NCBI GenBank assembly: GCA_001306305.2
Contig: CP155577.1
Coordinates: 2,401,501 to 2,465,500 of the forward strand
Direction: 5' to 3'
From: Citromicrobium bathyomarinum
Lineage (GTDB): Bacteria; Pseudomonadota; Alphaproteobacteria; Sphingomonadales; Sphingomonadaceae
Length of the DNA: 64,000 nt
Notes under the pieces: model-generated
The model's database searches: none
What the model saw: only the letters and a program-made list of their open reading frames with translations
Told to the model about the DNA's origin: nothing
Shown here: positions 30,726-58,123 of the stretch, piece by piece
How the letters are laid out: the number at the start of each line of letters is the position of its first letter
Numbering within the stretch: the stretch's first letter is position 1
Program-made: the position numbers and the translations under genes

Positions 30726-30769
30726 ATCCCCCTAGGGGGGGACCGTGCCGCGTCCCGTCTCGAAGGGAC
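30726..30769. promoter_or_regulatory. Two tandem island-operator sites (GTCCC-N8-GGGAC)
   Basis: 30752-30769 is a perfect GTCCC-N8-GGGAC; 30726-30743 is ATCCC-N8-GGGAC (one mismatch). They sit 61 bp before the Rieske oxygenase start and 60 bp before the CoA-transferase start, in the divergent promoter. The same inverted repeat occurs upstream of other island units. Confidence 0.7.
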
Positions 30770-30828
30770 AGTGATGCAGGAAAAACCAGACTAGGGTCCT
30801 TCGTACGACGAATTACAGGGGACCGAAT

Positions 30829-31530
30829 TTGCCTCAGATCTTGACGAACTCCGCAAACGCGCTGGACGGCTTGCTGTTCGATGGGATGACCATCGTAGCG
30901 GGAGGGTTTGGCCTTTGCGGGATCCCCGAAAACCTCATCGAAGCGCTTCGCGACAGCAATGTGCGCGATTTGACGGTCATTTCGAACAATGCCGGTGTCG
31001 ATGAATTCGGACTAGGTCTGCTCCTTCAGACGCGCCAGATACGTAAAATGATCAGCTCTTATGTCGGCGAAAACAAGGAGTTTGCGCGGCAATATCTTGC
31101 AGGGGAACTTGAGCTGGAATTCAATCCGCAGGGCACTCTTGCCGAACGCATTCGCGCCGGAGGCGCCGGCATCCCCGCCTTTTATACCAAGACCGGCGTT
31201 GGAACATCAGTGGCACAAGGCAAGGAAGAACGTGTCTTCAATGGTGAGCGATACCTGATGGAGACCGGCCTGTTCGCGGACCTGGCGCTGGTGAAGGCGT
31301 GGAAGGCCGACAGCAAGGGCAACCTCCTGTTCCGCAAGACAGCGCGCAATTTCAATCCGATTGCCGCGACTGCGGCAAAAGTCACAGTGGTCGAGGTGGA
31401 GGAGCTGGTCGAGGTTGGCAAGATCGACCCGGATCAGGTTCACACGCCCGGTATCTATGTCGATCGGATCCTTACCGGACAATCGTTCGAAAAACCGATC
31501 GAGCAGCGCACGGTCAGGGCGGGAGCATGA
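30829..31530 (+). CDS. 3-oxoacid CoA-transferase, subunit A
   Basis: A 233-residue class I CoA-transferase alpha subunit: [36 protein letters not shown] and [16 protein letters not shown] are family signatures (ScoA, CatI/PcaI). It moves CoA from succinyl-CoA or acetyl-CoA to a 3-oxo acid. It starts with TTG at 30829 (AGGGG 9 nt upstream). Its stop overlaps the B-subunit start (ATGA). With the B gene it is one of the few plus-strand units of the island, divergent from the Rieske oxygenase. The acid substrate cannot be read from sequence. Confidence 0.9.
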
Positions 31531-32171
31531 GCATGGGCTGGACAAGAGAACAAATGGCCGAACGTGCGGCGCGTGAGCTGAGTGATGGTGACTACGTCAA
31601 CCTTGGCATCGGCGTTCCCACGCTGGTACCAAATTTCATCGATCCGGCGATCGAAGTGACATTCCAGTCGGAAAACGGCATGCTCGGTGTCGGCCCCTTT
31701 CCTACTGAAGAAGAGGTCGATGCCGACCTCATCAATGCCGGAAAGCAGACCGTTACCGCCTTGCCCGGCGCGTCCTTCATGAATTCGGCTGAGAGCTTCG
31801 CCCTTATTCGTGGTGGTCACGTCGATCTGTCGATTCTTGGCGCCCTCGAAGTGGCCGAGAATGGCGACCTCGCAAACTGGAGCATTCCTGGCAAGATGGT
31901 CAAAGGCATGGGCGGAGCGATGGATTTGGTCGCCGGTGTCGACCGGATCATCGTCCTGATGGATCATCTGGCGAAAGACGGCACTGCGAAGTTTCGCAAG
32001 ACTTGCGAACTACCGCTCACGGGCGCTGACGTGGTGGATATGCTCATCACCGACCTGGCCGTGTTTGAACGTAGGGGCCGCGGCTCGGAGATGTTCCATC
32101 TGCTCGAGCTTGCACCTGGAGTTGATCTGGAGACCTTGCGATCGAAGACCGAAGCCAGCTTCATCGCCTAG
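31527..32171 (+). CDS. 3-oxoacid CoA-transferase, subunit B
   Basis: A 214-residue class I CoA-transferase beta subunit. The active-site Glu is in [12 protein letters not shown], preceded by [16 protein letters not shown], and [14 protein letters not shown] and [18 protein letters not shown] are typical. It forms the catalytic half of the enzyme with subunit A. ATG 31527 overlaps the A stop by 4 nt; the open frame extends upstream inside A without similarity. The 131 bp after the stop contain no recognisable feature before the convergent SDR pseudogene. Confidence 0.9.
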
Positions 32172-32302: not shown

Positions 32303-33096
32303 TCAGTCTTGCCCTATCCGGCTGGAATGATCGAGAGAAGGCAGGCGACTCGTCATTCCGCCATCGACCGTAACCGCCTGGCCAGTCACATACGCTCCTC
32401 CATCGCCGGCAAGGAAGAGAGCAGCTGCGGCAAGATCGGCTGGATAGGAATATCTTTCAAGCACGCTTGCAGCCGACAGATACGCCCGCCCCTCGGGGGA
32501 ATCCTCTGGGGCGAACCAGTCTCGGGTGATGCCGGTGAGGGTATTTGCCGGATTGATACAGTTGACCGTCACGCCGCTATCGCCGAGCTCGATGGCGAAC
32601 CCCTTCATCAGTCCGGCCACCGCATGCTTTGAGACGACATAGGGACCCTGTAGCCGAAGACCGTATTCGGCGCAGACCGATGCAATCGTGATGATACGAC
32701 CGCGCAGACCTGCCTGGCGCAACAAAGGTGCGCAGGCGCGCGAAATCCTGAAGACAGCATCGACGTTCACAGCGAACACCCTTCGCCAATTCTCGTCCGA
32801 ACAATCTTCAAGCAGCGCAAGTTCGCCGGGAATGCCGGCGTTGTTGACCAGAATATCGAGACCTCCAAGCTCATGACACAGGCCTCGACCAGAACTTTTG
32901 GCGCATCGTCCGCGGACACGTCGACTTGGAGCGGTGTGACACCAGCCCGTCCATCGAAACCCTCAGCCAGCTTTTCTGCGTCAAGGTCCACGGCAAGCAC
33001 CTCTGCGCCCTGATCAATGAAGCACTCTGCGATGCCTCGACCGATTCCATCGGCCGCGCCGGTCACCAGAGCTCTACGTCCTTGAAGCTGTTTCAT
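32303..33096 (-). pseudogene. Frameshifted SDR dehydrogenase
   Basis: Two overlapping frames together make one complete short-chain dehydrogenase. The N-terminal part (MKQLQGRRALVTGAADGIG... VSADDAPKVLVEAC) runs off frame near 32876-32880. Reading resumes as HELGGLDILVNNAGIPGEL in the other frame and continues to the active site (ASVCAEYGLRLQGPYVVSK) and C-terminus. The break coincides with a short CACA (TGTG on the coding strand) run; removing two bases restores the frame, so a 2-bp duplication is likely. As written it encodes no functional enzyme. A sequencing error is the alternative. It is the last gene of the long P450-headed operon. Confidence 0.85.
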
Positions 33097-34640: not shown

Positions 34641-35595
34641 GAGCCTGACTCAGAAGTTTATGCGATCTGGCAGTGGCTTGCGATGAGGCGGGTGAGGCGG
34701 CGGATGTGGGCGATGGTAGTCCATGCGGTGGAACTTTCGATAGTTCTTTCCCAGTCCTTTGCGAGCCGTCGACATCTGCCGAGCCAGGCGAAGGTGCGCT
34801 CGACCACCCAGCGGCGCGGGAGCAGAACAAAGCCCCTGGCGGTGTCGCAGCGGCGCACGATCTCGAGCGTCCATTGCCCATGCCCTTGAAGCGCGCCGAT
34901 GAGCTTGTCGCCTGCGTAGCCCCCATCGGCGAAGAGGTGGCGCAGCCACGGGAAGCGGTAGCGGATTGCCTTGATGAGATCGACCGCCCCGTCGCGATCC
35001 TGAATGCTGGCAGCGTGGATGGTGACGAACAACATCAGTCCGAGCGTATCGGTGATGATGTGACGCTTGCGTCCCATGATCTTCTTGCCCGCATCGTAGC
35101 CCCGTGGGCCGCCACTCTCGGTGGTCTTGACGCTCTGGCTATCGATCACCCCGGCGCTGGGGCTGGCCTCGCGCCCTTCGATCTGGCGCGCAGCCATCAC
35201 CAGCAGGTGATTGATCGTCTGCCATAGGCCGCTGTCGCGCCAGGCATAGAAATAGCGTTGAACCGTCGAGAGCGGAGGGAAATCCTTGGGCAGCATCCGC
35301 CATTGGCAACCGCTTGTTGCCAGATAGAGGATCGCGTTCATCACCTCGCGCAGGTCGGCGCAGCGCGGCCTGCCGCCAGGTTTCGCGGGCGGCAACAGAG
35401 GCTCGATCAAGGCCCACTCGGCATCGCGCAAATCGCTTGGATAACGTAGACCCGGGCGGCTATGCTGCTGCCGGGAGGTATCGGTCCACATCGCTTATTC
35501 CTCGGTCGTTTCTGGCGAAACCCCGGAATCAGCGATGCACCAGCGCGTCAAGCGCAACCAGCTGATATCTCCCAACTACTTTTGAAGACAGGCTC
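34641..35595 (-). mobile_element. IS5-family insertion sequence, copy 1 (955 bp)
   Basis: Ends carry imperfect inverted repeats starting GAGCCTG (left GAGCCTGACTCAGAAGT, right GAGCCTGTCTTCAAAAGT read inward). It is flanked by a 3-bp TAA duplication (34638-34640 and 35596-35598), the TNA target type of some IS5 subgroups. It is inserted in a crotonase gene whose halves are continuous across it. It appears identical to copy 2 at 45902-46856, which lies in the opposite orientation. Confidence 0.93.
34658..35491 (-). CDS. IS5-family DDE transposase, copy 1
   Basis: A 277-residue single-frame transposase. The catalytic acids are visible as VIDSQSVKTTE (Asp), LFADGGYAG (Asp) and WVVERTFAWLGRCRRLAKDWE (Glu, with the Y/R-(N)3-E-type motif of IS5/IS4 elements). 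The N-terminal LRDAEWALIEPLLPP is typical. It cuts and pastes the element between its inverted repeats. The sequence is intact and identical to the second copy, so recent activity is likely. Confidence 0.95.
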   Translation of the reverse strand: MWTDTSRQQHSRPGLRYPSDLRDAEWALIEPLLPPAKPGGRPRCADLREVMNAILYLATSGCQWRMLPKDFPPLSTVQRYFYAWRDSGLWQTINHLLVMAARQIEGREASPSAGVIDSQSVKTTESGGPRGYDAGKKIMGRKRHIITDTLGLMLFVTIHAASIQDRDGAVDLIKAIRYRFPWLRHLFADGGYAGDKLIGALQGHGQWTLEIVRRCDTARGFVLLPRRWVVERTFAWLGRCRRLAKDWERTIESSTAWTTIAHIRRLTRLIASHCQIA

Positions 35596-35704: not shown

Positions 35705-37348
35705 CTATGCTGCGCGACTGTTCGCAATCGACGCATCGGCACCCTTGATGATGTCGGCTGCCTTTTCCCCGATCATGATGGCCGTCGCATTGGTGTTTGT
35801 GCTGGTGATGGCCGGCATGATCGAAGCATCGGCGATGCGAATGCCCGTGAAGCCTTTGACCATCAGGTCAGGACCGACCACTGCGCTATCATCGTCGCCC
35901 ATGCGGCATGAACCAACTGCGTGATAGCCAGGTGCGACATGCTTGCGGATGAAGCTGGCCCATTCGTCGTCACTCGACGGGACCGGATTGGGATTTCGAT
36001 CCGCGACGACGATCTCCTGCATGGCTTTCGTTTGATAAAGCCGGTCGACAAAGCGGCAGCCCGCGACAAGGGTTTTCATGTCTTCGGGGTCGCCGAAAAA
36101 CTGATGTTCCACTCTCGGCTCGCCATTTTCCCCGAGAAGCACTCGCCCCCGACTTTTGGGATGACATACCGACGCATAGAGCGTCACGATCTTTTCCTTC
36201 GGCAACCCGCTGGAATCCCATGCCTCGGCGTTCGGGTCCGCATCGTATCCGAGTGGCATGAAATGCACCTGCACATCGGGTTCGTCCAGATCGGGATCGG
36301 TTCTAATTAACCCCATCGCCGGTACGGCCGGCGTAGACAGGGGCCCTGTACGGTTCAGCAGGTAGCGCAAGGCATATCCGGCCACGTGCCAGGGCCGCAT
36401 ACGGCTGTTAAGCGAATGTCGGTTGATGAACTTGTTTTGCCCGACACCTGGATGCTCCTGCAGGTTCGCGCCGACACCGTCTCGATCGGCGATTACGTCA
36501 ATCCCCAGATCCGACAGATGATCGGCAGGACCGATGCCCGAGCGCATCAGCAATCCGGGAGTGCCCATTGCTCCTGCAGAAAGGATCACTTCGCGGGAAG
36601 CCTTGGCCTTCATAGTCTGGCCGTCCTTCACGAACGAAATGCCCACGGCCCGGCGCCCGTCGAACAGGACCTTGCGAGCCTCTGCACCCGTCAGGACGGT
36701 CAGATTGGCGCGCCCTTTTGCTGGGCGGAGGTAGGCCTTTTCCGTGCTGCACCGCCACCCGTCCCGTTGAGAGCCGTGCGTGAGAAACACCCCGTCAAGA
36801 TTACCGTCCTGATATTCGTCGAGTGTCGACATGCCGGCCTGGTTGCAGGCCTCAAGGAAGGTATGGGTAAGTGGATGGTATCCATCGCGCATCGGTGAGG
36901 TCGATTGAGGGCCGTTCGATCCATGCGCCTGGTTGGGCTCCCCAGCCCAGCCTTCCGATCTGAGGAAGTAGGGAAAGACGTCCGCAAATCCCCAGCCCTT
37001 CGCCCCTAGCTCCTCCCAACGGTCATAATCGCGACGGGTGCCACGGACATAAACCATTCCGTTGATGGCGCTGCCTCCACCCAGGCCCTTGCCTCCGGAC
37101 CAGGCGAACTTGCGCCCCTCGATGGTCGGATCGGGAGACTGCGCATAGGTCCAGTCATATCGCTTGTTGCCGATCAACTGGACGACTCCTGCGGGGATCT
37201 GCACGATCAGGGAGCTGGTGTTCCCGCCCGCTTCGAGAAGCAGAACTCGCGTCCGACCATCCTCGCTCAGGCGGTTGGCAAGAACTGCCCCCGCACTTCC
37301 TCCGCCTACAATCACGAAGTCAGCCTGAAAAACGGCGTCCTGGCTCAT
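35705..37348 (-). CDS. GMC-family FAD oxidoreductase (choline dehydrogenase-like)
   Basis: A 547-residue glucose-methanol-choline oxidoreductase. FAD-binding VIVGGGSAGAVLANRLSED at the N-terminus, GGKGLGGGSAINGMVYVRG and LLMRSGIGPADHL are family signatures. The C-terminal active-site His lies in PGYHAVGSCRMG. Members oxidise alcohols, often terpenoid or alkyl alcohols, to aldehydes or ketones. It lies 15 bp upstream of the split crotonase gene and 40 bp downstream of the acyl-CoA ligase gene, within the long P450-headed operon, so an alcohol intermediate of that pathway is the probable substrate. Confidence 0.87.
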   Translation of the reverse strand: MSQDAVFQADFVIVGGGSAGAVLANRLSEDGRTRVLLLEAGGNTSSLIVQIPAGVVQLIGNKRYDWTYAQSPDPTIEGRKFAWSGGKGLGGGSAINGMVYVRGTRRDYDRWEELGAKGWGFADVFPYFLRSEGWAGEPNQAHGSNGPQSTSPMRDGYHPLTHTFLEACNQAGMSTLDEYQDGNLDGVFLTHGSQRDGWRCSTEKAYLRPAKGRANLTVLTGAEARKVLFDGRRAVGISFVKDGQTMKAKASREVILSAGAMGTPGLLMRSGIGPADHLSDLGIDVIADRDGVGANLQEHPGVGQNKFINRHSLNSRMRPWHVAGYALRYLLNRTGPLSTPAVPAMGLIRTDPDLDEPDVQVHFMPLGYDADPNAEAWDSSGLPKEKIVTLYASVCHPKSRGRVLLGENGEPRVEHQFFGDPEDMKTLVAGCRFVDRLYQTKAMQEIVVADRNPNPVPSSDDEWASFIRKHVAPGYHAVGSCRMGDDDSAVVGPDLMVKGFTGIRIADASIMPAITSTNTNATAIMIGEKAADIIKGADASIANSRAA

Positions 37349-37388
37349 GTCGAATGCTCCTTGGTCTTTTGTCTCGCTTCGGAAGCCA

Positions 37389-38876
37389 TCAGGAGACTGC
37401 GACCTGTGTCAGTCGATCTTCGCGCAATTGCTGTCGGCGTACCTTGCCCGCGTCGTCGCGCAGTCGCTGACGGGTGAATTCGAAACTTCGAGGGATTTTG
37501 TAGGTCACAATCCTCTCTCTCAGGAAAGCAACCAGCGTTTCACTATCGGGTTCGTCGAGCCCGTGTGCTTCGAGATCCTCGACCACCTGCACGATCGCAT
37601 GTACCCGTGCGCCCAAGTCGGAATCGGGCAGGCCGATCACGACAGCTTCAGCTACAGCCGGGTGCGCCATGAGCGCCCCTTCGACTTCCGCGGGAAAGAC
37701 ATTGGCCCCGCCTGACACGATCATATCGGTGCGGCGATCGGCAATGTAGAGATAGCCCTCATCGTCCATCCATCCGAAGTCACCAATCGTTTCAAAGCCT
37801 CCGGCAATAGTCCTCCGCTCCGCCCCGATATAACTGTAAGTGGACCCAGCTCCGCTTGCAGGCAGCGCGAAAATCTCGCCGATCTCGCCCTGCGGCACTT
37901 CGGTACCCTCGTCGTCGACGATCTTTATTTCGCTGCCGACAGCTCGGCCTACGGACCCGCGATGCTCGAGCCATTCCGTTCCGTTGAGGATTGCCGTCAC
38001 GATCCCTTCGGTGCCGCCATAGAGCTCCCAGATCGTTTCCGGGCCCAACCAGTCGATCCACTCCTGCTTGAGCTCGGGCGGCATCGGCGCGGCCCAGTGC
38101 CAGACGGTCTTAAGCGAGGACACATCGTACTTCGACCTGACCGCTTCCGGGAGGCGCGAAATGCGCATCATCATGGTAGGAACGAAGCTGGTCCAGGCTA
38201 TCGAGTGCTCGTCGATGAGACGAAGCGCCTCTTCGGGATCGAAACGCTCCATGCCGATAACCGGATGACCTTCGAACAAGGCCTGAAGGTTCGTTGTCAT
38301 CGGCATGTTGTGATAGATTGGCCCTGTGGCGAGGATTGGTCCCTCGGACGGAAATCGCAGGGGCGGCTTCTTCTCGTCATCGAAAGCATTCGGACCAGGC
38401 GACACGATAATCTTCGGGCGCCCCGTCGACCCTCCGGACGACATCGCCTTCCAATTGTCGGCGAGCACTGGCTCCAAGGGCGAAAGATCATCGCAATCGC
38501 TACCCAAGTCGGCGGCGAATGCCCCGAGCGAACTCTGCAGATGAGGATCGCTTGCTACGACCATGGCGGGCTTGGCAACTTCGATGATCGCTCGCAATTC
38601 GGCTTCGGGTAGCCGATAGGAAACGACGTGCGGTGTCGCGCCAATGCGCCAGAGTGCGAACAACCACTCGTAGATATGCGAGCCATTGGGCAAGGCAAGC
38701 GTCACCAGATCGCCAACCCCTAATCCGCGTTCTCGCAGAGCGTGAGCGCGGCGAAGCGAGCGAGCCGCTAGCTCACCCCAGGTAATGACATCGTCCCCAT
38801 GCCGAATTGCCCATGCGTCGCGGCCATGCTTTGCAGCGCCGCGAGCGGGAATTTCTGCGAGCATAATCAACGCCAC
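37389..38876 (-). CDS. Acyl-CoA synthetase (AMP-forming)
   Basis: A 495-residue adenylate-forming enzyme. The phosphate loop is SSGGSTGRPKI, followed by ELYGGTEG, the hinge region GDFGWMDDEGYLYIADRRTDMI, GGANVFPAEVE and the C-terminal catalytic Lys in DAGKVRRQQL. It activates a carboxylic acid with ATP and CoA; the acid would be the ring-opening product of this pathway. GTG 38876 is chosen as start because GGAGG lies 8 nt upstream. TTG 38891 and ATG 38864 are alternatives with poorer ribosome sites. Slightly short for the family but complete. Confidence 0.85.
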   Translation of the reverse strand: MALIMLAEIPARGAAKHGRDAWAIRHGDDVITWGELAARSLRRAHALRERGLGVGDLVTLALPNGSHIYEWLFALWRIGATPHVVSYRLPEAELRAIIEVAKPAMVVASDPHLQSSLGAFAADLGSDCDDLSPLEPVLADNWKAMSSGGSTGRPKIIVSPGPNAFDDEKKPPLRFPSEGPILATGPIYHNMPMTTNLQALFEGHPVIGMERFDPEEALRLIDEHSIAWTSFVPTMMMRISRLPEAVRSKYDVSSLKTVWHWAAPMPPELKQEWIDWLGPETIWELYGGTEGIVTAILNGTEWLEHRGSVGRAVGSEIKIVDDEGTEVPQGEIGEIFALPASGAGSTYSYIGAERRTIAGGFETIGDFGWMDDEGYLYIADRRTDMIVSGGANVFPAEVEGALMAHPAVAEAVVIGLPDSDLGARVHAIVQVVEDLEAHGLDEPDSETLVAFLRERIVTYKIPRSFEFTRQRLRDDAGKVRRQQLREDRLTQVAVS

Positions 38877-38907
38877 GCGCAGGCCCTCCAATCAATAATC
38901 AAGACGT

Positions 38908-39804
38908 TCACGATGCGTCCTGCTTGCGGTCATCGTTGCGTTTGAACTTTTCGCGAACCGCCGGCGGCAGTCCGGTCGGGTCGATCGGCAGACCGAAAAC
39001 CTGTTCGTTGTGCGAGTGGCTGAGTTGGTGAAGCGCGAAGCTGGTGTTCATCGCAGACACGCGACCTTGCGCATCCTGCGCCGCATTTACCGCTTCCTTC
39101 AGAAGCTTGAGCGCAAAGGAAGGCTTAAGCGAAATCTTCCGTGCCAGATCGAGTGTGGATGCCTCCAACTCCTCAAGGGGCACGACGTGGTTGACCATGC
39201 CCAGTCGGTGCGCCTCACTGGCATCTATGTAGTCGCTCGTAAAGAGCATCTCCTTCGCTTTACGAATGCCAAGCTCCCAAGGATGCTGAAAGAATTCAGC
39301 TCCCGCAATTCCTATCGCAGCAGTGTTGTCTGCGAACATCGCATCGTCTGACGCGACGATGAGGTCGCACGGCCAGATGAGCATGAGGCCACCGGAAATG
39401 GCTTTCCCTTGAACCTGTGCGATTGTCACCTTCGGAATGTTGCGCCAACGTTCGGACAGGCCGAGAAACATCTCTTTCTCGATGCCCATTCTGCCTTCCG
39501 CACCGCCGCAGCCGAAACCGCACCAGGTACCAACCGGATCCCATTGCTCCATGCCGGCCATGAAGGCATCCATGTCCAGGTCGTGACCGGCCGAAAAATG
39601 AGGCCCACGCGCCGCAAGAATAATTACCTTAATTGCGTCATCGCGCGTGCACAGATTGAACGCATCGTTCAACTCGTACAACATAGTCGAACTTTGCGCG
39701 TTGCGCGCCTCGGGCCGATTGAGGACAATCCTCGCTACAGCGTCCGCCGGATGCTCGAGAAGGATTGTTTCAAAAGATCTGCTGGCAGTGTTCGACATTG
39801 GCAT
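38908..39804 (-). CDS. Crotonase-fold protein lacking both usual hydratase glutamates
   Basis: A 298-residue enoyl-CoA hydratase/isomerase family member. The oxyanion segments PHFSAGHDLDMDAF and GKAISGGLMLIWPCDLI are clear. The two Glu residues that hydrate enoyl-CoA in classical ECH are missing: the first position is Leu (GGLMLIW) and the second region reads FADNTAAIGIAG. It may therefore be another crotonase activity (isomerase, hydrolase or C-C bond enzyme) rather than a hydratase. It starts MPMSNT at 39804 (or 39798) and lies between the acyl-CoA ligase and the 6-oxocamphor-hydrolase-like genes. Confidence 0.78.
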   Translation of the reverse strand: MPMSNTASRSFETILLEHPADAVARIVLNRPEARNAQSSTMLYELNDAFNLCTRDDAIKVIILAARGPHFSAGHDLDMDAFMAGMEQWDPVGTWCGFGCGGAEGRMGIEKEMFLGLSERWRNIPKVTIAQVQGKAISGGLMLIWPCDLIVASDDAMFADNTAAIGIAGAEFFQHPWELGIRKAKEMLFTSDYIDASEAHRLGMVNHVVPLEELEASTLDLARKISLKPSFALKLLKEAVNAAQDAQGRVSAMNTSFALHQLSHSHNEQVFGLPIDPTGLPPAVREKFKRNDDRKQDAS

Positions 39805-49117: not shown

Positions 49118-50062
49118 ATGCCTTTTTGGACCCAATTGTCCGAGACGAAGCTCATGCAATTGGAGTCGGAGTTTCCGAAACTGATCATGTCGATCGGTCA
49201 AAAGTCTTTCGGCGCCCACCTGCTTCGCCTTCTTAACGCAACTTGCGGAGCGGAACACGCATCAGTCTTTAATCTCACTAAAGACGATCTCGTAGAAATT
49301 ACGGCAGTGAGTATCGACGGCTCGGACACGGCGCACCGCCAAGTGGAAATCTACCTGAAGGAGGGCCTGTGGCGCAAAGATCCTTCTCTCGACGAGGCGC
49401 GACAACAACTGCGTATCGAGGATGCCGCGGTTGTTCGGACCGATGTAGAGCACCTATCAAACCCGACCTTACGAGATCTGGTCTATGGTGAGCCTCATGT
49501 TCAGGACCGACTTCTGATCTGCGCACGGAATGGTGACAACATTTTGGGATTAAGTGTCCTCCGAACATCAAAGAAAGGTCCCTTCACCTCAGAGGATGTG
49601 GAATCGATCCGGTCAATTTCCAATTCGATTTTCGCGGTCGTCGCGAAGCACATCAACCTGTCCTGGGATGGACCCGATGTCTCGGTGGCGCTCACCTCGC
49701 TTGAGGAAATTGAAGCTTGCATCGAGGAATGCGCAAGCGAACTGCCTCGGCGGGAGGCGCAGGTATCGGCTCGTATCATATTCGGCATGACCACGACGGG
49801 GATCGGCCTGGAGCTTGAGATCAGTGACGAGACAGTCATGACCTATCGCAAGCGTTCGTATCAGCGATTGGAGATCGCAACACAGCGCGAGCTTCTTCTC
49901 TGGTACCTCGAGCTTTGGAGTAAGTGGCAAAACCGATCGACGCGCGAGTGTGATCTTACGCTGTCCAATTCTGACAGGGACCGAGACAGGAGGCTGCCCC
50001 GCGCGAGCACCGGTATCACGTCTCGCAAGACGATAGGCTCGCAGGTAAGCGCGGCGGCCTAG
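49118..50062 (+). CDS. LuxR-family transcriptional regulator of the island
   Basis: A 314-residue protein. The first ~190 residues look like a GAF/PAS-type sensing domain (FGAHLLRLLNATCGAEHASVF, DRLLICARNGDNILGLSVLR); residues ~205-265 form a LuxR-type helix-turn-helix (LPRREAQVSARIIFGMTTTG, LEISDETVMTYRKRSYQRL). The tail is Arg/Ser-rich and likely disordered. Start ATG 49118 has TTGGAGAG upstream. It has no autoinducer-synthase partner. As the only regulator in the island, with the GTCCC-N8-GGGAC repeat at its own promoter and those of neighbours, it is the best candidate for the pathway's regulator, perhaps sensing the substrate. Confidence 0.8.
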   Translation: MPFWTQLSETKLMQLESEFPKLIMSIGQKSFGAHLLRLLNATCGAEHASVFNLTKDDLVEITAVSIDGSDTAHRQVEIYLKEGLWRKDPSLDEARQQLRIEDAAVVRTDVEHLSNPTLRDLVYGEPHVQDRLLICARNGDNILGLSVLRTSKKGPFTSEDVESIRSISNSIFAVVAKHINLSWDGPDVSVALTSLEEIEACIEECASELPRREAQVSARIIFGMTTTGIGLELEISDETVMTYRKRSYQRLEIATQRELLLWYLELWSKWQNRSTRECDLTLSNSDRDRDRRLPRASTGITSRKTIGSQVSAAA

Positions 50063-50131: not shown

Positions 50132-50725
50132 TCAACGCGCTCGCTTGATGTCGTTGATGACGTTCGTCATCGATTGGACGATGTCTGAACCCATCTCGAT
50201 CGCGCGCTGCTTGCCGTCTTTCCACGCTTTGAGATGCGCGATGCCCTTCTCCGAATGATTGTTCCAGTCGGGATCGGTAGGATAAGTGATTTCCAGCCTG
50301 ATCCCGTTCGGATCCTTGAAATACACACTGTAGATGAGGCCATCGTGATCGGTTGGTCCTACAACCTCCAGGCCCTTTGACGTCAGCCAATCGAACCACT
50401 CGTCGACTTCCTCCCGACTCTCAGCCTGAAGCGCGATATGATCGAATATCTCGTATGCCGGGTGCGAGACGGCGGGTCGCTCTGGCAGTCCCGGAGCTTC
50501 GAAGAACGCAATTGTCGACCCGTCCTTCATGCGAAAGAAGATATGAAAGTAGGGAAATTCGTCGCCGGTCGAAGGCACCGAATTGCCGACCACGGTACTC
50601 GCGAGGTCCATCCCCATGACGTTCATGTAGAAGTCAGCGGTGGCCTCGACATCATGCGTCACCCACGCTGCGTGGTTGAGCATGAGCGGAGTTAGCTTTG
50701 TCGACTGGGTTTCGTGGACGGTCAT
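50132..50725 (-). CDS. VOC-superfamily (glyoxalase/extradiol-like) protein
   Basis: A 197-residue protein with one full vicinal-oxygen-chelate module: LNHAAWVTHDVEATADFYMN, IFFRMKDGSTIAFFE, FDHIALQAESREEVDEW and SVYFKDPNGIRLEIT. Metal-binding candidates are His in NHAAW, His in FDHIAL and Glu in RLEIT. Members include extradiol dioxygenases, lyases and epimerases. ATG 50725 (GGGGAG upstream) is preferred over an upstream in-frame codon. Single-gene unit with its own perfect operator 60 bp upstream. Function in the pathway is unknown; methylmalonyl-CoA-epimerase-like or ring-cleavage roles are possible. Confidence 0.78.
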   Translation of the reverse strand: MTVHETQSTKLTPLMLNHAAWVTHDVEATADFYMNVMGMDLASTVVGNSVPSTGDEFPYFHIFFRMKDGSTIAFFEAPGLPERPAVSHPAYEIFDHIALQAESREEVDEWFDWLTSKGLEVVGPTDHDGLIYSVYFKDPNGIRLEITYPTDPDWNNHSEKGIAHLKAWKDGKQRAIEMGSDIVQSMTNVINDIKRAR

Positions 50726-50784
50726 TTCAAACACTCCCCGCATTGGATAGATTGAGGAATTAGACTATCGGCGCCAGAAACTAT

Positions 50785-50802
50785 GTCCCCAGCGATTGGG
50801 AC
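50785..50802. promoter_or_regulatory. Island-operator site upstream of the VOC gene
   Basis: Perfect GTCCC-N8-GGGAC, 60 bp before the VOC start codon, the same distance as in the Rieske/CoA-transferase promoter. Confidence 0.7.
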
Positions 50803-50815
50803 AGCTGCGCAGAGG

Positions 50816-51436
50816 CTACTCAACGCCTAGTAATATTGGCGGCAATTCGCGGCAGTTGGCCTGCTGCCAGGCCAACAAGGTGGACCGAAGGCTCAACGTT
50901 TCGGCGATCTCGTCACGCCCTTCGATCAAAGCGCGCTTCCGTCCTTCGGCGATATCGAAGGGCAGCTCGATACCGCCGCCGTAGGTCACCGTCTGACCAA
51001 TCAGATCGACCCGTACCCGCGCCCGCCCAGCATCTGCCACTGTTTCTCGAAGCGCAGATATTTCAGGAACGGCAAGAACGATCGGCAAAATGCCATTCTT
51101 GAAGCAGTTGTTGTAAAAGATTTCGGCAAAGCTTTCGGCTATGATGCAACGAATTCCGAAATCCAGCAGGGCCCATGGCGCATGCTCCCTGCTCGAGCCG
51201 CACCCGAAGTTTGCCCCTGCCACGAGAATGCCCGCATTGCCCCATGGCACACGGTTGAGAACGAAGTCGGGATTGAGTGAACCGTCGGCACGATATCGCA
51301 TTCTCGCAAACAGGGCACGGCCGAGACCCTTGCGCTCGACGGTCTTCAGAAACTCTCCGGGAAGTATCTTGTCGGTGTCGATATTGTCGATAGGTATGGG
51401 AGCCGCAGTCGCTTCAAGGCGTTCGAAACGGGTCAT
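50816..51436 (-). CDS. LeuD-like hydro-lyase small subunit
   Basis: A 206-residue aconitase-superfamily small (swivel) subunit: [21 protein letters not shown], the signature [14 protein letters not shown], and [21 protein letters not shown]. With the large subunit it forms an enzyme that hydrates/dehydrates a branched hydroxy-dicarboxylate. In leucine synthesis this is 3-isopropylmalate dehydratase. Here it overlaps the LeuC-like gene by 4 nt and sits with an HMG-CoA lyase and CoA-transferase but no leuA or leuB, so a catabolic substrate (citramalate, dimethylmalate or similar) is more likely. Confidence 0.85.
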
Positions 51437-52836
51437 CGCTCAAGCTTTCTGGGATCAGCGATCTTGCCCGACAGCGCACTTGCGGCCGCGACCGCGGGCG
51501 AGACAAGATGGGTACGTCCGCCGGTGCCCTGGCGGCCTTCGAAATTGCGGTTCGAGGTGGAGGCACACCGTTCGCCAGGCGCCAGTCGATCCGGATTCAT
51601 GCCAAGACACATCGAGCAGCCAGCTTCCCGCCACTCAAACCCCGCCTCCAGGAAAACGAGATCGAGTCCCAGATCTTCTGCCTGCAGGCGGACCTGGCCG
51701 GAACCCGGTACGATCAGGGCGCGCACGCCGCTGGCGACCTTTTTTCCACGCACGATTTCCGCTGCTGCGGCCAAGTCCTCCAGCCGCCCATTCGTACAGC
51801 TGCCAATGAAAACAACGTCTATCGGGAGGCCCTCGATTGCCTGTCCCGGCGCGAGACCCATGTAATCGAGCATCGCGTGTAGTTGCGGCTTCTGCTGTTC
51901 TGGAAAGTCTTCAGGATCGGGAACCACACCATTGATAGGTACGACCGCATCAGGGCTTGTTCCCCATGTGACCATGGGCGCCACATCGCGGGCGTCGATG
52001 ATGACGGTCTTGTCGAATTTCGCCGAAGCGTCAGATCGCAGCGCACCCCATCTTTCGACTGCTGCGTCGAATTCTTCACCTTGCGCAACATTCGGGCGGC
52101 CATGCAACCAATCAAAAGTCTTTCGGTCCGGCGCAATCATGCCTGCGCGAGCACCTGCTTCGATGGTGAGATTACATAACGTCATTCGCCCGGCCATATC
52201 GAGCGCTTCGACAGCAGCTCCGGCATATTCGACGACGTATCCGGTGCCGCCTGCGGTCCCGAGTGTACCGATCACATGAAGAGCAAGATCCTTTGCCGAG
52301 GCGCCCGCGCATAGGGCGTTGTCGATCCGAACAAGCATCGTTTTTGACGGCCTCTGACGCAGGGTTTGCGTAGCAAGTACGTGCTCAACTTCACTGGTTC
52401 CGATCCCGAATGCCAAAGCGCCAAATGCTCCATGGGTCGATGTATGGCTGTCTCCACAAACGATAGTCATGCCGGGTTGGGTCAGGCCAAGCTCCGGTCC
52501 GACGACATGCACGATGCCCTGCCGCGCGCTGCGTAAGGGAATGTAGGGGACTTTAAACTGCTCGACATTGCGCTCCAGCGTTTCGACCTGGAGCCGGCTG
52601 GCCGGGTCTTCAATCGGTCCGTCACGGTTATCGGTGGGCACATTGTGGTCAGCCACTGCGATCGTCAGCTCAGGATGTGCGACGGTCCGGTCTTGCATGC
52701 GCAAGCCCTCGAATGCCTGGGGGCTAGTAACTTCGTTCACGAGGTGCCGGTCGATGTGAAGAAGCCACGTCCCGTCGTCCATCTCCAGAATGGCATGAGC
52801 ATCCCAGATTTTTTCGTACATCGTCCGGGGCGGCAT
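51433..52836 (-). CDS. LeuC-like hydro-lyase large subunit (Fe-S)
   Basis: A 467-residue aconitase-superfamily large subunit. The 4Fe-4S ligands are in GSCTNGR and CSMCLGMN; other signatures are [32 protein letters not shown] and [11 protein letters not shown]. It is catalytic with the LeuD-like subunit encoded next. ATG 52836 overlaps the HMG-CoA-lyase stop by one base (TGATG); GTG 52839 is the alternative. Full length for the family. Reaction as for the small subunit; the context indicates degradation rather than leucine synthesis. Confidence 0.87.
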
Positions 52837-53750
52837 CACACCGCCTCCGTCAATTTTGCGCGCAGGGCATTGCGCACTCGCCCACCGGTTGCCGCGCCCG
52901 GTATGCGCTCGGCCTGCAATGATGCAGTCAAGAGGCGATCAAGATCAATCCCGGTTTCGACCCCCATCGCATCTAGCGTCCAGACGAGATCCTCGGTTGC
53001 AACATTTCCGGTTGCTCCCGGAGCGAATGGACAGCCGCCGAGGCCGGCGAACGCTGAATCGATCACCGTCACACCTTCCCCCATAGCCGCGAGTGCATTC
53101 GCCACCCCCAGTCCATATGTATCGTGACCATGGAAAGCCCATCCGCCGACTTGCGGGATTTCGGAGACCGCGCGGGCAAACAATGCAGAGACCCTGTCTG
53201 GGGTGACCCGCCCGGTCGTGTCGCAAAGGGCGATTTCGGCTGCAGGTGTAATCTCCGACAATCGCGCGAGGATTTGCAGAACCGCGTCCTGTGCTACCGG
53301 CCCGTCAAAGGGACAGTCGAAGGATGTAGCCAAATTGATCCTGACCTTCACTTCGGACGGCAATTCGCTGACCAGCAGCGCAAACTCCTCGACCGATTCT
53401 TCTGGAGTACGACGCACATTGCTCTGGTTGTGCGCCGGCGATGCGGACATCACGAAGGCAATATGCCCGGCACCGGCCTGGAGCGCCCGCTCGGCTTGAC
53501 GGTTGGTAGGAACCAGCATCTGGACATCAAGATCTGCGTATCTGGCGCAGTGCGCGAGAATTTCGGGCGCGTCGGCCATCTGCGGAACCGCGCTGGTACT
53601 GACAAAGGCGCCCGCCTCCATCCGCCTGATGCCTGCTGCATAGAGGCGATCGATGAATTCGAACTTTTGCTCGGTCGGAATAAAGTCCTTGATCGGTTGG
53701 AAACCGTCACGAGGTCCGACCTCGACAATCTGGATTTTACGCATTGTCAC
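52836..53750 (-). CDS. HMG-CoA-lyase-family acyl-CoA lyase
   Basis: A 304-residue TIM-barrel lyase. It shows VGPRDGFQ (metal/substrate residues), [21 protein letters not shown] (metal His pair) and [17 protein letters not shown] with the mobile-loop Cys. HMG-CoA lyase splits 3-hydroxy-3-methylglutaryl-CoA into acetyl-CoA and acetoacetate; relatives cleave citramalyl-CoA and similar tertiary hydroxyacyl-CoAs. Start GTG 53750 overlaps the CaiB stop (GTGA); ATG 53744 is possible. The LeuCD-like dehydratase and the CoA-transferase on either side suggest the product acid is first hydrated, then CoA-activated, then cleaved here. Confidence 0.88.
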
Positions 53751-54976
53751 TTGAGCACTCCGCTCTGCTGTAATTGCGCGATCTTCCCGGCATCATAGCC
53801 AAGCAGTTCGCGCACGATCCGCACGCCGTCGGCACCGGTCTCGGGGCCGGTATTGCGCACGCTCCCAGGTGCGCCGGGAAAATGCGGCACGATTCCCGGA
53901 TGCAGGACATCGCCGAACCGGGGATCAGCGACCTCCCGCACCATTCCGCGCGCACGGTATTGTTCGTCGGTCGCGATATCTTCCGCAGTGTACACTTTTG
54001 ACGAAGGTATGCCCGCCGATTCCAGCGAATAGAGCAGCTGCTGCGTATCGAGCGACTGCGACCACCCGGTAATGATCCGATCGAGTTCCGATGCGTTCGC
54101 GACCCGTTCGGCATTGCCCGCGAAGCGTTCGTCCCCGATCAAGTCCCTGCGTTCCATCAGTTCTGCAAGGGCCGCGAATAACGGCTCCGAGTTCGCCGCG
54201 ATCAGGACGAACTCGCCTTGCTTAGAGGGATATGCGTTGGAGGGTGCCGCCGTGGCGATGGCCCCTCCGGTCGGCTGCTTTATCCGTCCAAGCGCGCCAA
54301 ATTCAGGGAGCATCCCCTCCATCAGGCTCAAAACGCTCTCCGTCAGCGCGACATCGACGGTCTGATACCGTTGATCACTCCCCCTGCGCTCGCGCCGCCA
54401 CAGCGCTGAGACGATGCCCAGCGCTGCATAAAGACCGGCGAGCGAGTCGCCGACGCTGATGCCTACCCGGACTGGCGGAAGATCGGATGTACCGGGCGGG
54501 TGGTCGGTCAGATAGCGCAGCCCCCCAACGGCCTCGCCAATGACGCCGAACGCGGCACGATCCTTACCGGGACCCGTTTGCCCATACCCAGAGATATGGG
54601 CGACGATAAGATCGCGATTGCCTTCACGCAGAACATCCGGACCCAGACCCATTTTCGTGAGCTGACCGGGGCGGAAATTCTCGACCACGACATCGCATTT
54701 CTGCGCAAGATCGATAGCGATCCTTCGACCTTCCTCGGACTTTAGATCGAGAGCGATGCTTTGCTTGTTGCGACCGTGGACCGACCACCAGAGGGATTTG
54801 CCATCGACCTGGGCACCCCACTGCCGGACCGGGTCGCCACGCAGAGGTTCGATCTTTACGACCTCAGCCCCGAGATCGGCTAGCAAGCGGGTACAGAACG
54901 GCGCGGCCACGAAGTGGCCGATCTCAAGCACTCTGACCCCGTCAAGAACGCCTGGCAGGGTTGCGGACTCGCTCAC
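53747..54976 (-). CDS. Class III (CaiB/BaiF) CoA-transferase
   Basis: A 409-residue family III CoA-transferase: LEIGHFVAAPFCTRLLADLG, VVKIEPLRGDP, SIALDLKSEEGR, VENFRPGQLTKMGLG and the catalytic Asp in QTVDVALTESV. Similar enzymes include succinyl-CoA:citramalate and hydroxymethylglutarate CoA-transferases. It starts with GTG 54976, overlapping the SnoaL-like stop by 4 nt, and overlaps the HMG-CoA-lyase-family gene by 4 nt. Physical coupling to the lyase supports a role in making that lyase's CoA-ester substrate. Confidence 0.87.
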   Translation of the reverse strand: MSESATLPGVLDGVRVLEIGHFVAAPFCTRLLADLGAEVVKIEPLRGDPVRQWGAQVDGKSLWWSVHGRNKQSIALDLKSEEGRRIAIDLAQKCDVVVENFRPGQLTKMGLGPDVLREGNRDLIVAHISGYGQTGPGKDRAAFGVIGEAVGGLRYLTDHPPGTSDLPPVRVGISVGDSLAGLYAALGIVSALWRRERRGSDQRYQTVDVALTESVLSLMEGMLPEFGALGRIKQPTGGAIATAAPSNAYPSKQGEFVLIAANSEPLFAALAELMERRDLIGDERFAGNAERVANASELDRIITGWSQSLDTQQLLYSLESAGIPSSKVYTAEDIATDEQYRARGMVREVADPRFGDVLHPGIVPHFPGAPGSVRNTGPETGADGVRIVRELLGYDAGKIAQLQQSGVLK

Positions 54977-55611
54977 GAGGCAGCGTCCTGCGCTTCCCTC
55001 GTCAGACGGTCGTAGCGCTCGACGCGGGCGGGATCGACCACTAGCGGGCGTTCATAGGAAGGATCGCTTGTATCGCGGCTCGCCTGCTGCCCCGTTTCGG
55101 CCACAGCAAATTCATGAGGCGCGATGCAGTCGAAGTTTGGGGCTCCCTCCGGCGTCTTGCTTCCTTCGATCGTATTGATCGATGGTGCGACCCAGTCGAC
55201 GATATATTTGCGATGCGCGATGGCCCATTTGCCTTCGCGCTTCTCCATCCGGTCGATGTAGCGACCGCCGATTGAACTGAACGGGGCGCCTGTCGTGTTC
55301 ATTGCCGAGTAGGAGAGATAGGTTTCGCAATGGGCGGTTTCACCGTCAATTTCCACATGATGATTGCCGATCATGTGCTGGGTCGCGCTCTGATATTGGC
55401 CGTGCAGGTTCTTGACCCAGTCCCAGAACGCGTCGGGTGGCCCGACAAAACTGCCGTGATCGTCCATCGCATCGGGGTGATAAGCCGACATAACCATGTC
55501 CCGATCAAGTCGATCGCACCCGCGGCAATAGCGCACCACGACGTCATAGATTTCCTGGCGATCCATGAGATAGGTCAGCTTCGCTTCCATCTCTTCTATC
55601 GTCATGCTCAT
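54973..55611 (-). CDS. SnoaL-like (NTF2-fold) protein
   Basis: A 212-residue NTF2-fold protein: TYLMDRQEIYDVVVRYCRGCDRLD is the common sphingomonad SnoaL_4 start, followed by MIGNHHVEIDGETAHCETY and GRYIDRMEKREGKWAIAHRKY. Members act as isomerases, dehydratases or hydrolases on ring compounds; many are uncharacterised. Start ATG 55611 overlaps the Gfo/Idh gene's stop by 4 nt (ATG 55605 also possible). Part of a seven-gene coupled operon headed by a P450. The ~45-residue C-terminal tail is variable. Confidence 0.75.
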   Translation of the reverse strand: MSMTIEEMEAKLTYLMDRQEIYDVVVRYCRGCDRLDRDMVMSAYHPDAMDDHGSFVGPPDAFWDWVKNLHGQYQSATQHMIGNHHVEIDGETAHCETYLSYSAMNTTGAPFSSIGGRYIDRMEKREGKWAIAHRKYIVDWVAPSINTIEGSKTPEGAPNFDCIAPHEFAVAETGQQASRDTSDPSYERPLVVDPARVERYDRLTREAQDAAS

Positions 55612-56741
55612 ATACCACTCTCCATGTTCCAGCCGGCCGCGTGTCTGATCCGATCAAGCAATCGGTGCAGCTTCAAGGCGTCGGCAAAATCCGGCACGCT
55701 GGCGGCACCGGTCCTCAGGTCTTTGGAAACTGCGTGATAGGCATGCGCCACGCTATCGGCGTGACTGTCCTCCGCAGTCGTGCACTGGCGATAGATCGGG
55801 GGAATTTGGAGCGGCCGCAGCTCTTCCTCGCCCTGCCCGCCGCTTATATCAAGATGACCGTATTGCAGGTGACCGCTGCCGGACTCGATCAGGAGCGCTC
55901 CGGAATCACCGGAAATTTCCCAACGCAGATTGCCTGCAGGAGACTCTCGGCCGGTATAGTGCAGCGAAGCGACCGCGCCCGATTGAAGGGTGCCCGATAC
56001 GACCACCTCATCCGGTCCATTGGCTGCGATTGTCTCCCCGGTGTCGGTGAGTTTTACCTGAGGAAACTGCACCGCCATTGTCGCGTCGAGTTCCGCGAAT
56101 TCGCCAAGAACCCACGTGAAACCGTCGATCATATGGCCGAAGGGGATCGTGAAGAGAGTAGCCCCGAGACTGTCATCGAGCGTGTAGGCAAGCGAAGCGA
56201 GCGCTTGGCCGCTCCAGGGAAACCCGCCGGAGCCCGTCACTCGGGTCGAAATGACCCTGCCGACATACCCTTCCTCCACGAGATCGCGGATATAGCGCAA
56301 GGCCGGAGAGCTGCGGGCCTGCAAGCCGACGAAGTGCCGCACGCCTGACTGGCGCGCAGCGTCCAGCATCTCCTCCGCCTCAGCCGTGTTGCGGCCTAGC
56401 GGCCATTCGCAATAGACATCCTTTCGGCAATCAAGCGCCTTCTGAACTAGATCACGGTGCTCCGGCACTTTCACGGCCACGACCACCAGCTCGACATCTC
56501 CGCTTGAGGCCAGGACCAGCGCATCGCTAGTCGCCATCGAGACTGCGTGCGCCTTTGCGGCAGCTTCAGCGGATTTGCCCGAACTCGCCGAGAGAGCAAC
56601 AACGTCGAATTTGGCGGGCATCGAGCGCAGTGCGGGAAGATGAGCCAGGCTCGCCCACCCTCCGTTTGCGCTCAATCCGATAATGCCGACGCCGCAGCTA
56701 TGCGGCGCAGCACCTTCGGCGGCTGGCTCCTCGTCAGCCAT
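55608..56741 (-). CDS. Gfo/Idh/MocA-family oxidoreductase (Gal80-like)
   Basis: A 377-residue NAD(P)-dependent oxidoreductase. The N-terminal Rossmann motif is GVGIIGLSANGGWASLAHLPAL, with VVVAVKVPEHRDLV and the cofactor-region motif CEWPLG in place of the usual EKP. The wording of the N-terminal motif resembles fungal Gal80/galactose dehydrogenase relatives. It would oxidise an alcohol or hydroxy acid. It starts directly (no gap) after the P450 stop and overlaps the SnoaL-like gene by 4 nt. Substrate unknown. Confidence 0.78.
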   Translation of the reverse strand: MADEEPAAEGAAPHSCGVGIIGLSANGGWASLAHLPALRSMPAKFDVVALSASSGKSAEAAAKAHAVSMATSDALVLASSGDVELVVVAVKVPEHRDLVQKALDCRKDVYCEWPLGRNTAEAEEMLDAARQSGVRHFVGLQARSSPALRYIRDLVEEGYVGRVISTRVTGSGGFPWSGQALASLAYTLDDSLGATLFTIPFGHMIDGFTWVLGEFAELDATMAVQFPQVKLTDTGETIAANGPDEVVVSGTLQSGAVASLHYTGRESPAGNLRWEISGDSGALLIESGSGHLQYGHLDISGGQGEEELRPLQIPPIYRQCTTAEDSHADSVAHAYHAVSKDLRTGAASVPDFADALKLHRLLDRIRHAAGWNMESGI

Positions 56742-57998
56742 TCAACCCGCCTGTTTCGCACCGAGCGTGAACTGCACGTGCAGGCTTTCGAGAGCATGGA
56801 CCTGGAAATTCGCCATCCACTGCGGCGCAGGGTGCTTTTCGGACAGTCGCAGATCCTTCAGGCGCTCCAGCAGGCGCCGGATCGCAACCCTCATTTCCAT
56901 GCGCGCAAGCTGGTTGCCGACGCAAAAATGGATACCGCGGCCGAAGGCGAGGTGATTGCGGACACCTTTACGATCAATGTCGATGGTTTCGGGGCACTCC
57001 CATTTGGCCTTGTCGTAGTTGCCCGCGAGATAGCTCACCGCGATGATCGTATCCTTCGGGACCGGGAAACCGCCAATTTCCGTGTCTTGAGTGGTGTAGC
57101 GGTACTGCTGAGGCACAGGGGCATGCGCACGCAGCATCTCTTCGATGACGGCTGGAACAGCCTTTTCCTCGGTCATCACGCGCTCTTTCAGGGCGGGGTC
57201 CTTAAGGATCATCCACATTGCGCTTGTGATGCCGGTCGTGGTCGTTTCGTTTCCGGCCACAAGGATAAGTTGCGCTACCATCAATAGCTGCCCCATGGTG
57301 AGGCGTTCGCCGTCGACATCGGCATGGACCAGCCGTGAAATCAGATTGTCGCTGGGATTGGCCTCATAGTAACGCGCCCGCTCGGCGAGGTAATTCTGCA
57401 TGTCGATCATGCGATCAGTCAGCATGAGCTCGCGATCCGGCGGGCAGTTCGGATCGTTGCGATCCACCCAGGCGTTCGACCAGAGTTTGAATTGCTCGTA
57501 GTCCTTGCGATCGACCCCCAGCTGATCCGAGATAATATACATCGGGAGATGGACTGCGAAACCGGCGCTGAGGTCAGTTTCGCCATCCTCGATGAAGCCG
57601 TCGATCAGGTCATCGATGATCGCCAGCGCATAGGGTTCGAGCTGCTTGGTGTAGCTTGGCGTGAAGACCTTATCGACAAGCGCGCGATGTAGCGTGTGCT
57701 CGGGCGGGTCGGCGAATGCCAGAACATGCTCTTCCGGCCATCCCCGCTCCTTGTATCGCCGGGCGACTTCTTCGGAAACCGAGGTTTTCCGGTTGATCAT
57801 GATTGGCGTGCGGCTGGAAAAAATATCCGGATTGCTGTTGACGAAATTGATGTCCTCATAGCGACTTACCCAGACCATGCCGGTGCCCTCGTCGCGATAG
57901 ACCGGAGCCTCCTCGAGCAGGCGGTTGAGGTGCGGAATAGGGCAGCGCTGCACCTCAGGGGACGCCCAGGTCCCAAAATCCTTCGCTGAAGATGTCAT
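56742..57998 (-). CDS. Cytochrome P450, second
   Basis: A 418-residue bacterial P450. The I-helix motif is VAGNETTTTG, the K-helix EEMLR, and the haem loop FGRGIHFCVGNQLAR, all canonical, unlike the first P450. The FADPPEHTLHRALVDKVFTP segment is typical of soluble bacterial CYPs. It heads the operon P450-Gfo/Idh-SnoaL-CaiB-HMGL-LeuC-LeuD. An island-operator repeat (GTCAC-N8-GGGAC) lies 108 bp before its ATG. It has no adjacent redox partner and may share the ferredoxin/diflavin system at 42.5-44.6 kb. Confidence 0.9.
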   Translation of the reverse strand: MTSSAKDFGTWASPEVQRCPIPHLNRLLEEAPVYRDEGTGMVWVSRYEDINFVNSNPDIFSSRTPIMINRKTSVSEEVARRYKERGWPEEHVLAFADPPEHTLHRALVDKVFTPSYTKQLEPYALAIIDDLIDGFIEDGETDLSAGFAVHLPMYIISDQLGVDRKDYEQFKLWSNAWVDRNDPNCPPDRELMLTDRMIDMQNYLAERARYYEANPSDNLISRLVHADVDGERLTMGQLLMVAQLILVAGNETTTTGITSAMWMILKDPALKERVMTEEKAVPAVIEEMLRAHAPVPQQYRYTTQDTEIGGFPVPKDTIIAVSYLAGNYDKAKWECPETIDIDRKGVRNHLAFGRGIHFCVGNQLARMEMRVAIRRLLERLKDLRLSEKHPAPQWMANFQVHALESLHVQFTLGAKQAG

Positions 57999-58105
57999 AT
58001 TCCGCTCCTCTTGCTCGGCCGCCGAATTTCAAATCGCCACTTAGGGTAACGGCGGGTTCGGTCGTGCTTTGGAGCAAGAGCTAACAGACCATGCCAATCA
58101 CTTCA

Positions 58106-58123
58106 GTCACCGAAGGGCGGGAC
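58106..58123. promoter_or_regulatory. Island-operator site upstream of the second P450 operon
   Basis: GTCAC-N8-GGGAC, one mismatch from consensus and the same variant half-site as at 46929. It sits in the 141-bp gap between the P450 start and the preceding SDR stop. Confidence 0.6.

Follow-up and report, generated by a model that had tools for sequence, protein, structure and literature searches.

In Citromicrobium bathyomarinum, an 18-bp inverted repeat, GTC(C/A)C-N8-G(G/T)GAC, recurs in the promoters of a catabolic island contained in a stretch of 64,000 nucleotides (contig CP155577.1, positions 2,401,501 to 2,465,500), which was analyzed as a whole and is called the window below. From comparative sequence evidence, this dyad very likely serves as operator for the LuxR-type activator that the island itself encodes, at 49118-50062. 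An initial annotation of the window had proposed the repeat as the operator of a regulon under this LuxR protein, and the proposal gained strong comparative support from a genome scan, from homologous islands, including that of plasmid pTK2 (Sphingobium sp. TKS), and from LuxR relatives. The sites, their conservation, their linkage to the LuxR family, and a constant distance between the dyad and a -10-like element were observed directly. The dyad is taken as the putative docking site of the LuxR protein because it was kept where the rest of the promoter changed and because other bacteria have it next to regulators related to this one. The sites, the associated -10-like elements, and the regulator gene are as follows.

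30726-30743, minus strand: operator 1, ATCCC-N8-GGGAC, before the Rieske oxygenase gene; the same one-mismatch form in pTK2, with arms identical at 10/10 positions
30752-30769, plus strand: operator 2, perfect, before the CoA-transferase A/B genes
30792-30797, plus strand: -10-like element of operator 2, with T at +31.5 from the dyad centre
46929-46946, minus strand: operator 3, GTCAC-N8-GGGAC, judged from relatives to be the ancestral operator of the first P450 operon
46901-46906, minus strand: -10-like element of operator 3
49065-49082, minus strand: operator 4, perfect, between the hydrolase-like gene (minus) and luxR (plus)
49037-49042, minus strand: -10-like element of operator 4
50785-50802, minus strand: operator 5, perfect, before the VOC protein gene
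50757-50762, minus strand: -10-like element of operator 5
58106-58123, minus strand: operator 6, GTCAC-N8-GGGAC, before the second P450 operon
58078-58083, minus strand: -10-like element of operator 6
49118-50062, plus strand: LuxR-type regulator, 314 aa, with a GerE helix-turn-helix

A pattern scan of the window reproduced all six copies of GTCCC-N8-GGGAC reported initially, comprising three perfect copies (30752-30769, 49065-49082, and 50785-50802) and three with one mismatch (30726-30743, 46929-46946, and 58106-58123). All six were confirmed as intergenic by a home-made gene caller trained on the codon usage of 21 window genes, while intergenic DNA made up 4,112 of the 64,000 bases. The chance expectation had been given as well below one in 64 kb. 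This held for perfect copies (about 0.06 expected, by arithmetic from 4^-10) but not at one mismatch or fewer, where 2.9 copies are expected and 7 of 100 shuffled windows reached six. Chance was rejected as an explanation, not by this count, which is about twice expectation and weak alone, but by placement, clustering, and conservation. When all dyads of 5+5 bases with spacers of 0 to 12 were listed for the intergenic DNA of the window, GTCCC with spacer 8 ranked first with a score of 4.5, compared with a highest score of 3.0 in 20 shuffles. It was also the top dyad in the same listing of pTK2 and of a stretch (L038) of the more distant genome G174. The gaps from site edge to called start were 54, 71 (59 from a TTG start), 98 or 35, 41, and 107 bp; the 60 to 61 bp between site and start codon initially given for three units were thus not recovered, with gaps ranging from 35 to 107 bp. 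The constant distance is that from the dyad to the -10-like TA, not to the start codon.

Across the 3.3-Mb genome, three perfect copies were found, every one inside a single 20-kb part of the island (window 30752-50802). Three is an ordinary number for genomes of the family, and a reversed-pattern control gave four; the chance that three uniform points fall this close together is about 1e-4. At one mismatch or fewer, there were 75 places, of which 66 were classified: 6 in the window, 2 in a stretch just past it (L054), and 58 elsewhere. Among the matches listed, these 58 comprised 47 coding and 11 intergenic copies, the latter including one overlapping pair, and the intergenic share of the DNA fetched around the outside copies was 10.5%. 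Island and outside copies differed in intergenic placement (Fisher p = 1.3e-5 if the two copies immediately beyond the window are counted and 1.7e-4 if not). Copies outside the island were mostly coding and lacked island-like clustering, and the equal frequency in coding or unrelated regions that had been named as refuting evidence was not seen. For the form GTCMC-N7/8-GKGAC, 21 genome matches were found (17 in the control), and 7 of the 21 lay at genome positions 2,432,252-2,466,085, a region equal to 1% of the genome.

Further sites were noted outside the window. A TonB receptor gene just past it has an N8 dyad upstream (genome 2466068-2466085, L054 669-686, window coordinate about 64568) and a second dyad, with N7, at genome 2466010-2466026 (L054 611-627); the place on pTK2 that matches these dyads carries GTCACCTGACGGGGTGAC. 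A copy of GTCAC-N8-GGGAC at genome 1558288-1558305 (L178) lies 47 bp before a called gene outside the island, for which no Pfam match was found at E<=1e-5.

Five genomes of the family chosen for their high copy number (G064, G198, G131, G034, and G047) have no or weak LuxR matches, and no two copies lay less than 33 kb apart on a contig. Perfect copies taken from genomes of the family served as a negative control, and 24 of these 29 were coding. Copy number per genome was rejected as a marker: G064 (8) and G198 (7) exceed the three perfect copies of this genome and have no LuxR match. Because their copies are scattered, only clustering is informative.

Homologous islands and related regulators

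Plasmid pTK2, which is typed as mobilizable, is largely collinear with the island from the Rieske oxygenase gene through the TonB receptor gene, and its LuxR protein shows 68% identity to the window LuxR over 88% of the length. Scanning of pTK2 gave six intergenic sites, each at the orthologous place, and one coding copy. Identity between the window and pTK2 was 60/60 in the arms (the pTK2 sites having been located with the pattern itself, a bias towards arm identity), 26/48 in the spacers, and 76/240 in the 20-bp flanks, the last being low because the comparison was ungapped. Unanchored alignments of the intergenic regions also placed site on site. The one-mismatch forms were kept as well, namely, ATCCC at operator 1 and GTCAC at operators 3 and 6. 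In Novosphingobium sp. B1 and an uncultured Croceicoccus, with LuxR proteins 99% and 93% identical, all four sites falling inside the fetched DNA were present. The counterpart of operator 3 lies 49 bp from the P450 start in pTK2 and 91 bp from it in B1 and Croceicoccus. Absence of the repeat from homologous clusters, which the initial annotation would have taken as a refutation, was thus not what these three islands showed.

More distant relatives also carried the dyad near the regulator. Genome G017, whose regulator is 54% identical, has its six perfect copies all within 21 kb around the regulator gene, and in G174 (36% identical), 12 of 16 were on the 47.7-kb contig that carries it. In the 40 kb fetched from each, 5/6 and 10/11 copies, respectively, were intergenic, and the remaining two were at the 3' edge of one gene, before the next gene. 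In G220, two of six perfect copies accompany the regulator, the first 61 bp upstream of the regulator gene and the second 3 kb away. A Variovorax megaplasmid (CP063167.1) encodes a regulator 42% identical to the window LuxR and carries seven copies of GTCCC-N7-GGGAC, all at 1.74-1.93 Mb of 2.48 Mb; the record annotation places five of the seven between genes and one inside a coding region, and the last extends over the end of a permease gene just ahead of a ferredoxin gene. Three of its five N8 copies lie inside the N7-carrying stretch. More remotely, a Sphingobium plasmid (TomTYG64, L090 17263) has one intergenic GTCCC-N7-GGGAC 1.6 kb from a LuxR relative of 28-30% identity, and relatives in G138, G136, and G144 (about 20-31% identity), together with one in G390, have TGTCC-N10-GGACA-type dyads in nearby promoters.

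Several observations were made on the surroundings of these regulators. The G174 regulon (L038/L039, C16) includes FAD_binding_2 proteins, a flavin mononucleotide (FMN) oxidoreductase, a pyrroloquinoline quinone (PQQ) dehydrogenase, two P450s, and a TonB receptor; at a guess, it may represent a steroid-type pathway. On CP063167.1, the 185 kb at 1742868-1927357 hold seven N7 and three N8 dyads, so that both spacings occur together, and many of the dyads precede P450-neighbouring, ferredoxin, ABC-transporter, and short-chain dehydrogenase/reductase (SDR) genes. A different palindrome, TGTCCATAGCTCTATGGACA, was found beside another LuxR relative in G174, G220, and G341 (L135 10022, L133 10098, and L137 10133). 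Genome G303 has six LuxR relatives (L123-L127), and intergenic CCCCC-type dyads recur around L127, for which reason some operators may have diverged. In the N. aromaticivorans plasmid pNL2, which is missing from the 25 plasmid records that P0001 matched, the 45 kb fetched for the LuxR gene contained no intergenic dyad of this type.

Promoter geometry, regulator, and alternative readings

When the sites were aligned towards the genes, a TA step was found at +31.5/+32.5 from the dyad centre. The first alignment had used one direction for most divergent sites; in the repeat, every gene-facing direction was counted. TA with T at +31.5 occurred in 9 of 17 directions of the window and pTK2 set, which, as the sites are orthologous, are not independent. 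In the set from G017, G174, and G220, it occurred in 7/29 at +31.5 and likewise in 7/29 at +30.5, and in the remote dyad set, it occurred in 4/16 at +31.5. These were the top values of 50 offsets (joint top for the G017/G174/G220 set). In directions facing away from genes, the counts at +31.5 were 1/7, 0/12, and 0/4 in the three sets. Binomial tests against the other offsets gave 4e-10 for the window and pTK2, 5e-11 for G017/G174/G220 (with +30.5 and +31.5 pooled, a choice made after the counts were seen), and 3e-4 for the remote set. TA at the expected distance is present at five of the six window sites and at the TonB-receptor site of this genome, and the TA of operator 4 faces the hydrolase-like gene not only in the window but also in pTK2 and G017. 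A TA located 30.5-31.5 bp genewards of the dyad centre is probably the -10 element. With TA taken as -12/-11, the dyad would be centred near -43, where LuxR-type activator sites lie. A dyad at a fixed distance upstream of the -10 element, near -42, is a feature of LuxR-type (class II) activator promoters, and by sequence the fixed distance to a -10-like TA was seen in all three sets.

The window LuxR has a GerE DNA-binding domain (Pfam PF00196, E 7.8e-8, residues 209-260), and GerE was matched in all 24 aligned relatives. Neither an autoinducer-binding nor a receiver domain was found in the 24 members with Pfam at E<=0.01, the only matches being GerE, Sigma70_r4 families, one terminase, and one GAF. 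The GAF match (residues 35-171, E 0.0057) occurred in 1 of the 24 members, the window protein itself, and is sub-threshold, lying below the Pfam gathering score. AlphaFold2, run on three near-identical rows, returned a model too poor to use (pLDDT, a per-residue confidence score, of 39.6). Against solved structures, the best E of a single-sequence search was 0.19, which is not significant, and a profile matched the GerE part only. No luxI was found among 42 annotated features around the pTK2 copy or among the window genes scanned with Pfam. LuxR is the sole regulator annotated in the syntenic pTK2 island and the sole one among the window island genes scanned. The genomes listed for comparison, one of the same species and eight of the same genus, gave no match to the LuxR gene at E<=1e-20, which suggests that the gene travels with the island, and its distribution is in keeping with a transferred island.

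A number of results weigh against the assignment of the dyad to this regulator. Besides the dependence among the window and pTK2 sites and the pooling of offsets, operator 1 lacks TA at +31.5, and the Variovorax sites lack it at the expected place (0/3 directions). GTCCC with spacer 8 was not top-ranked in the unbiased dyad listing of the G220 or Variovorax stretches. In the DNA examined, relatives in G075, Cupriavidus, B. arboris, and B. plantarii had no recurring intergenic GTCC dyad (B. plantarii has a single N9 GTCC dyad, in a convergent gap), nor did five of the six G303 relatives have such an intergenic dyad, one of these five having a perfect dyad just behind the gene that was called coding by the home-made caller. 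Proteins of G147 and G069 share the recognition-helix letters of the G136 protein and have no dyad. On a tree of 43 relatives, the dyad label (18 rows, some of them single-site) needs 10 changes, compared with a mean of 14.1 in shuffled labels, of which 10/500 were as low. G174 also has a MarR gene beside luxR.

Three other readings were weighed. The same LuxR protein might bind the same operator to repress rather than activate, as a LuxR-like repressor of a hydroxysteroid dehydrogenase gene has been reported in Comamonas (PMC8700777); operator 4 lies 35 bp from the luxR start, and binding there could block luxR. In independent sets, however, the dyad centre lies 30.5-31.5 bp upstream of the -10-like TA, which puts it on the -35 region and not at the start or beyond, and a repressor has no need of so constant a distance. 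Repression is therefore considered unlikely. It is quite improbable that a regulator encoded elsewhere binds the dyad and that the LuxR gene is a bystander. The MarR gene next to luxR in G174 and the patchiness of the dyad label on the tree would fit such a regulator, but the dyad clusters where this LuxR family occurs, across genera and in a betaproteobacterium, no second regulator is annotated in the pTK2 island, and the five copy-rich family genomes with no or weak LuxR matches have no dyad clusters. Finally, an RNA hairpin (attenuator or terminator) or an effect of composition can practically be dismissed: GTCCC and GGGAC are able to pair, and 2.9 copies per 64 kb are expected by chance at one mismatch or fewer, but the dyad lies upstream of the -10-like element and would hence fall outside the transcript, its arms are invariant without compensatory change while the spacers are free, and clustering, placement, and conservation are far from chance.

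Putative target units and their state in this strain

Under the preferred reading, activation by the island LuxR, the protein would be a one-component regulator, with the N-terminal, weakly GAF-like part presumably serving as the sensor of a pathway compound. A LuxR dimer would bind the 18-bp dyad about 43 bp upstream of the transcription start, and the bound dyad would take the place of a -35 element. The predicted targets are the oxygenase, CoA-transferase, P450, hydrolase/SDR, and VOC units, together with the TonB-receptor unit just outside the window. Operator 4, between luxR and the hydrolase-like gene, would serve the latter and perhaps damp luxR. The units, with two copies of an insertion sequence (IS), are as follows.

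29430-30671, minus strand: Rieske ring-hydroxylating oxygenase, putative target
30829-32171, plus strand: CoA-transferase subunits A and B, putative targets
34641-35595: second 955-bp IS copy, with the GMC gene on one side and an enoyl-CoA hydratase gene on the other
35705-45879, minus strand: first P450 operon
45902-46856, plus strand: IS (DDE_Tnp_1), 955 bp, with 3-bp TAA flanks, after operator 3 and its -10 and ahead of the P450 gene
46961-48966, minus strand: hydrolase-like protein (gene at 47794-48966) and SDR, putative targets of operator 4
50132-50743, minus strand: VOC/glyoxalase-fold protein, putative target of operator 5
50816-57998, minus strand: second P450 operon, starting at 57998 and running down to 50816

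The first P450 operon encodes a P450, a Rieske ferredoxin, a flavodoxin-type reductase, TauD, an SDR, two enoyl-CoA hydratases, an AMP-binding (acyl-CoA ligase-like) protein, and a GMC oxidoreductase. The second encodes a P450, Gfo/Idh, SnoaL-like, CaiB-type CoA-transferase, and HMG-CoA-lyase-like proteins, and aconitase-family large and small subunits. The hydrolase-like protein had a Pfam match below the cut-off, and its pTK2 orthologue is annotated as an alpha/beta fold hydrolase. No substrate emerged from P450 homology, the P450 of the second operon resembling many bacterial P450s and that of the first matching weakly.

In this strain, the IS at 45902-46856 separates operator 3 (46929-46946) from the P450 start at 45879; it is absent at the corresponding place in B1, Croceicoccus, and pTK2. 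Transcription starting at operator 3 would need to pass through the IS, and the first P450 operon may thus be uncoupled from its operator. Both IS copies have identical 25-base ends, and the enoyl-CoA hydratase gene beside the second is shorter than its pTK2 counterpart. An SDR at 32303-33066 appears as two overlapping open reading frames, whereas by gene order it is a single one in pTK2, and for this reason the island may be decaying here.

Comparison with known systems

The regulon is well supported by the comparative evidence and is rated as new, though of a kind already known. No description of this operator was found in the literature covered, most subscription journals lying outside that coverage. 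For a transferable catabolic island, the analysis names both a specific operator and a candidate protein to bind it, predicts co-induced units, including the TonB receptor just past the window, and suggests that related regulons can be searched for with the dyad. An inducer screen would also be simple, with an operator and luxR reporter exposed to candidate substrates. A broader proposal, held with somewhat less than even confidence, is that island-borne LuxR-type one-component activators of alpha- and betaproteobacteria share one operator code, GTCC-N9/N10-GGAC near -43, with a variable fifth base and an inner spacer of 7 or 8 bp. On this proposal, sites of this kind precede P450, CoA-transferase, SDR, PQQ-dehydrogenase, and TonB-receptor genes. 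If it is true, orphan catabolic islands could be delimited and their target genes recognized by means of the dyad, and changes in the recognition helix could be compared with the drift of the operator.

Operators of the lux-box/LuxR-TraR type are 18- to 20-bp dyads bound by a GerE-domain dimer and centred near -42.5, overlapping the -35 element. The island dyad is similar in its 18-bp length and as a predicted site of a GerE-domain dimer near -43, but its letters, GTCCC...GGGAC, differ, no LuxI is annotated nearby in pTK2, and no autoinducer-binding domain was found.

Among catabolic regulators, TeiR/TesR of Comamonas testosteroni is a LuxR-type positive regulator needed to induce catabolic clusters (PMC8700777, PMC6895838). 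By description, the island LuxR, proposed as a positive regulator of catabolic genes, resembles it. The TeiR/TesR genes serve testosterone, and the passages on TeiR/TesR in these sources give no operator. Also by description, a LuxR-family gene inside a sphingomonad catabolic cluster recalls EGO55_13855 of the progesterone (pdc) cluster of Caenibius tardaugens, which is upregulated by substrate and thought to be an activator (PMC12239570); the terms "operator" and "palindrom" do not occur in the text of that source on the pdc cluster. In the estradiol (edc) cluster of C. tardaugens, the repressor EdcR is associated with a palindrome, TnnCnnTACnAnTnGTAnnGnnA, that overlaps the -10 box (PMC8700777). 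Both there and in the island, one palindrome recurs in the promoters of a sphingomonad catabolic cluster, but whereas the EdcR palindrome lies over the -10 box and serves a repressor, the island dyad would lie over the -35 region and is proposed to serve an activator.

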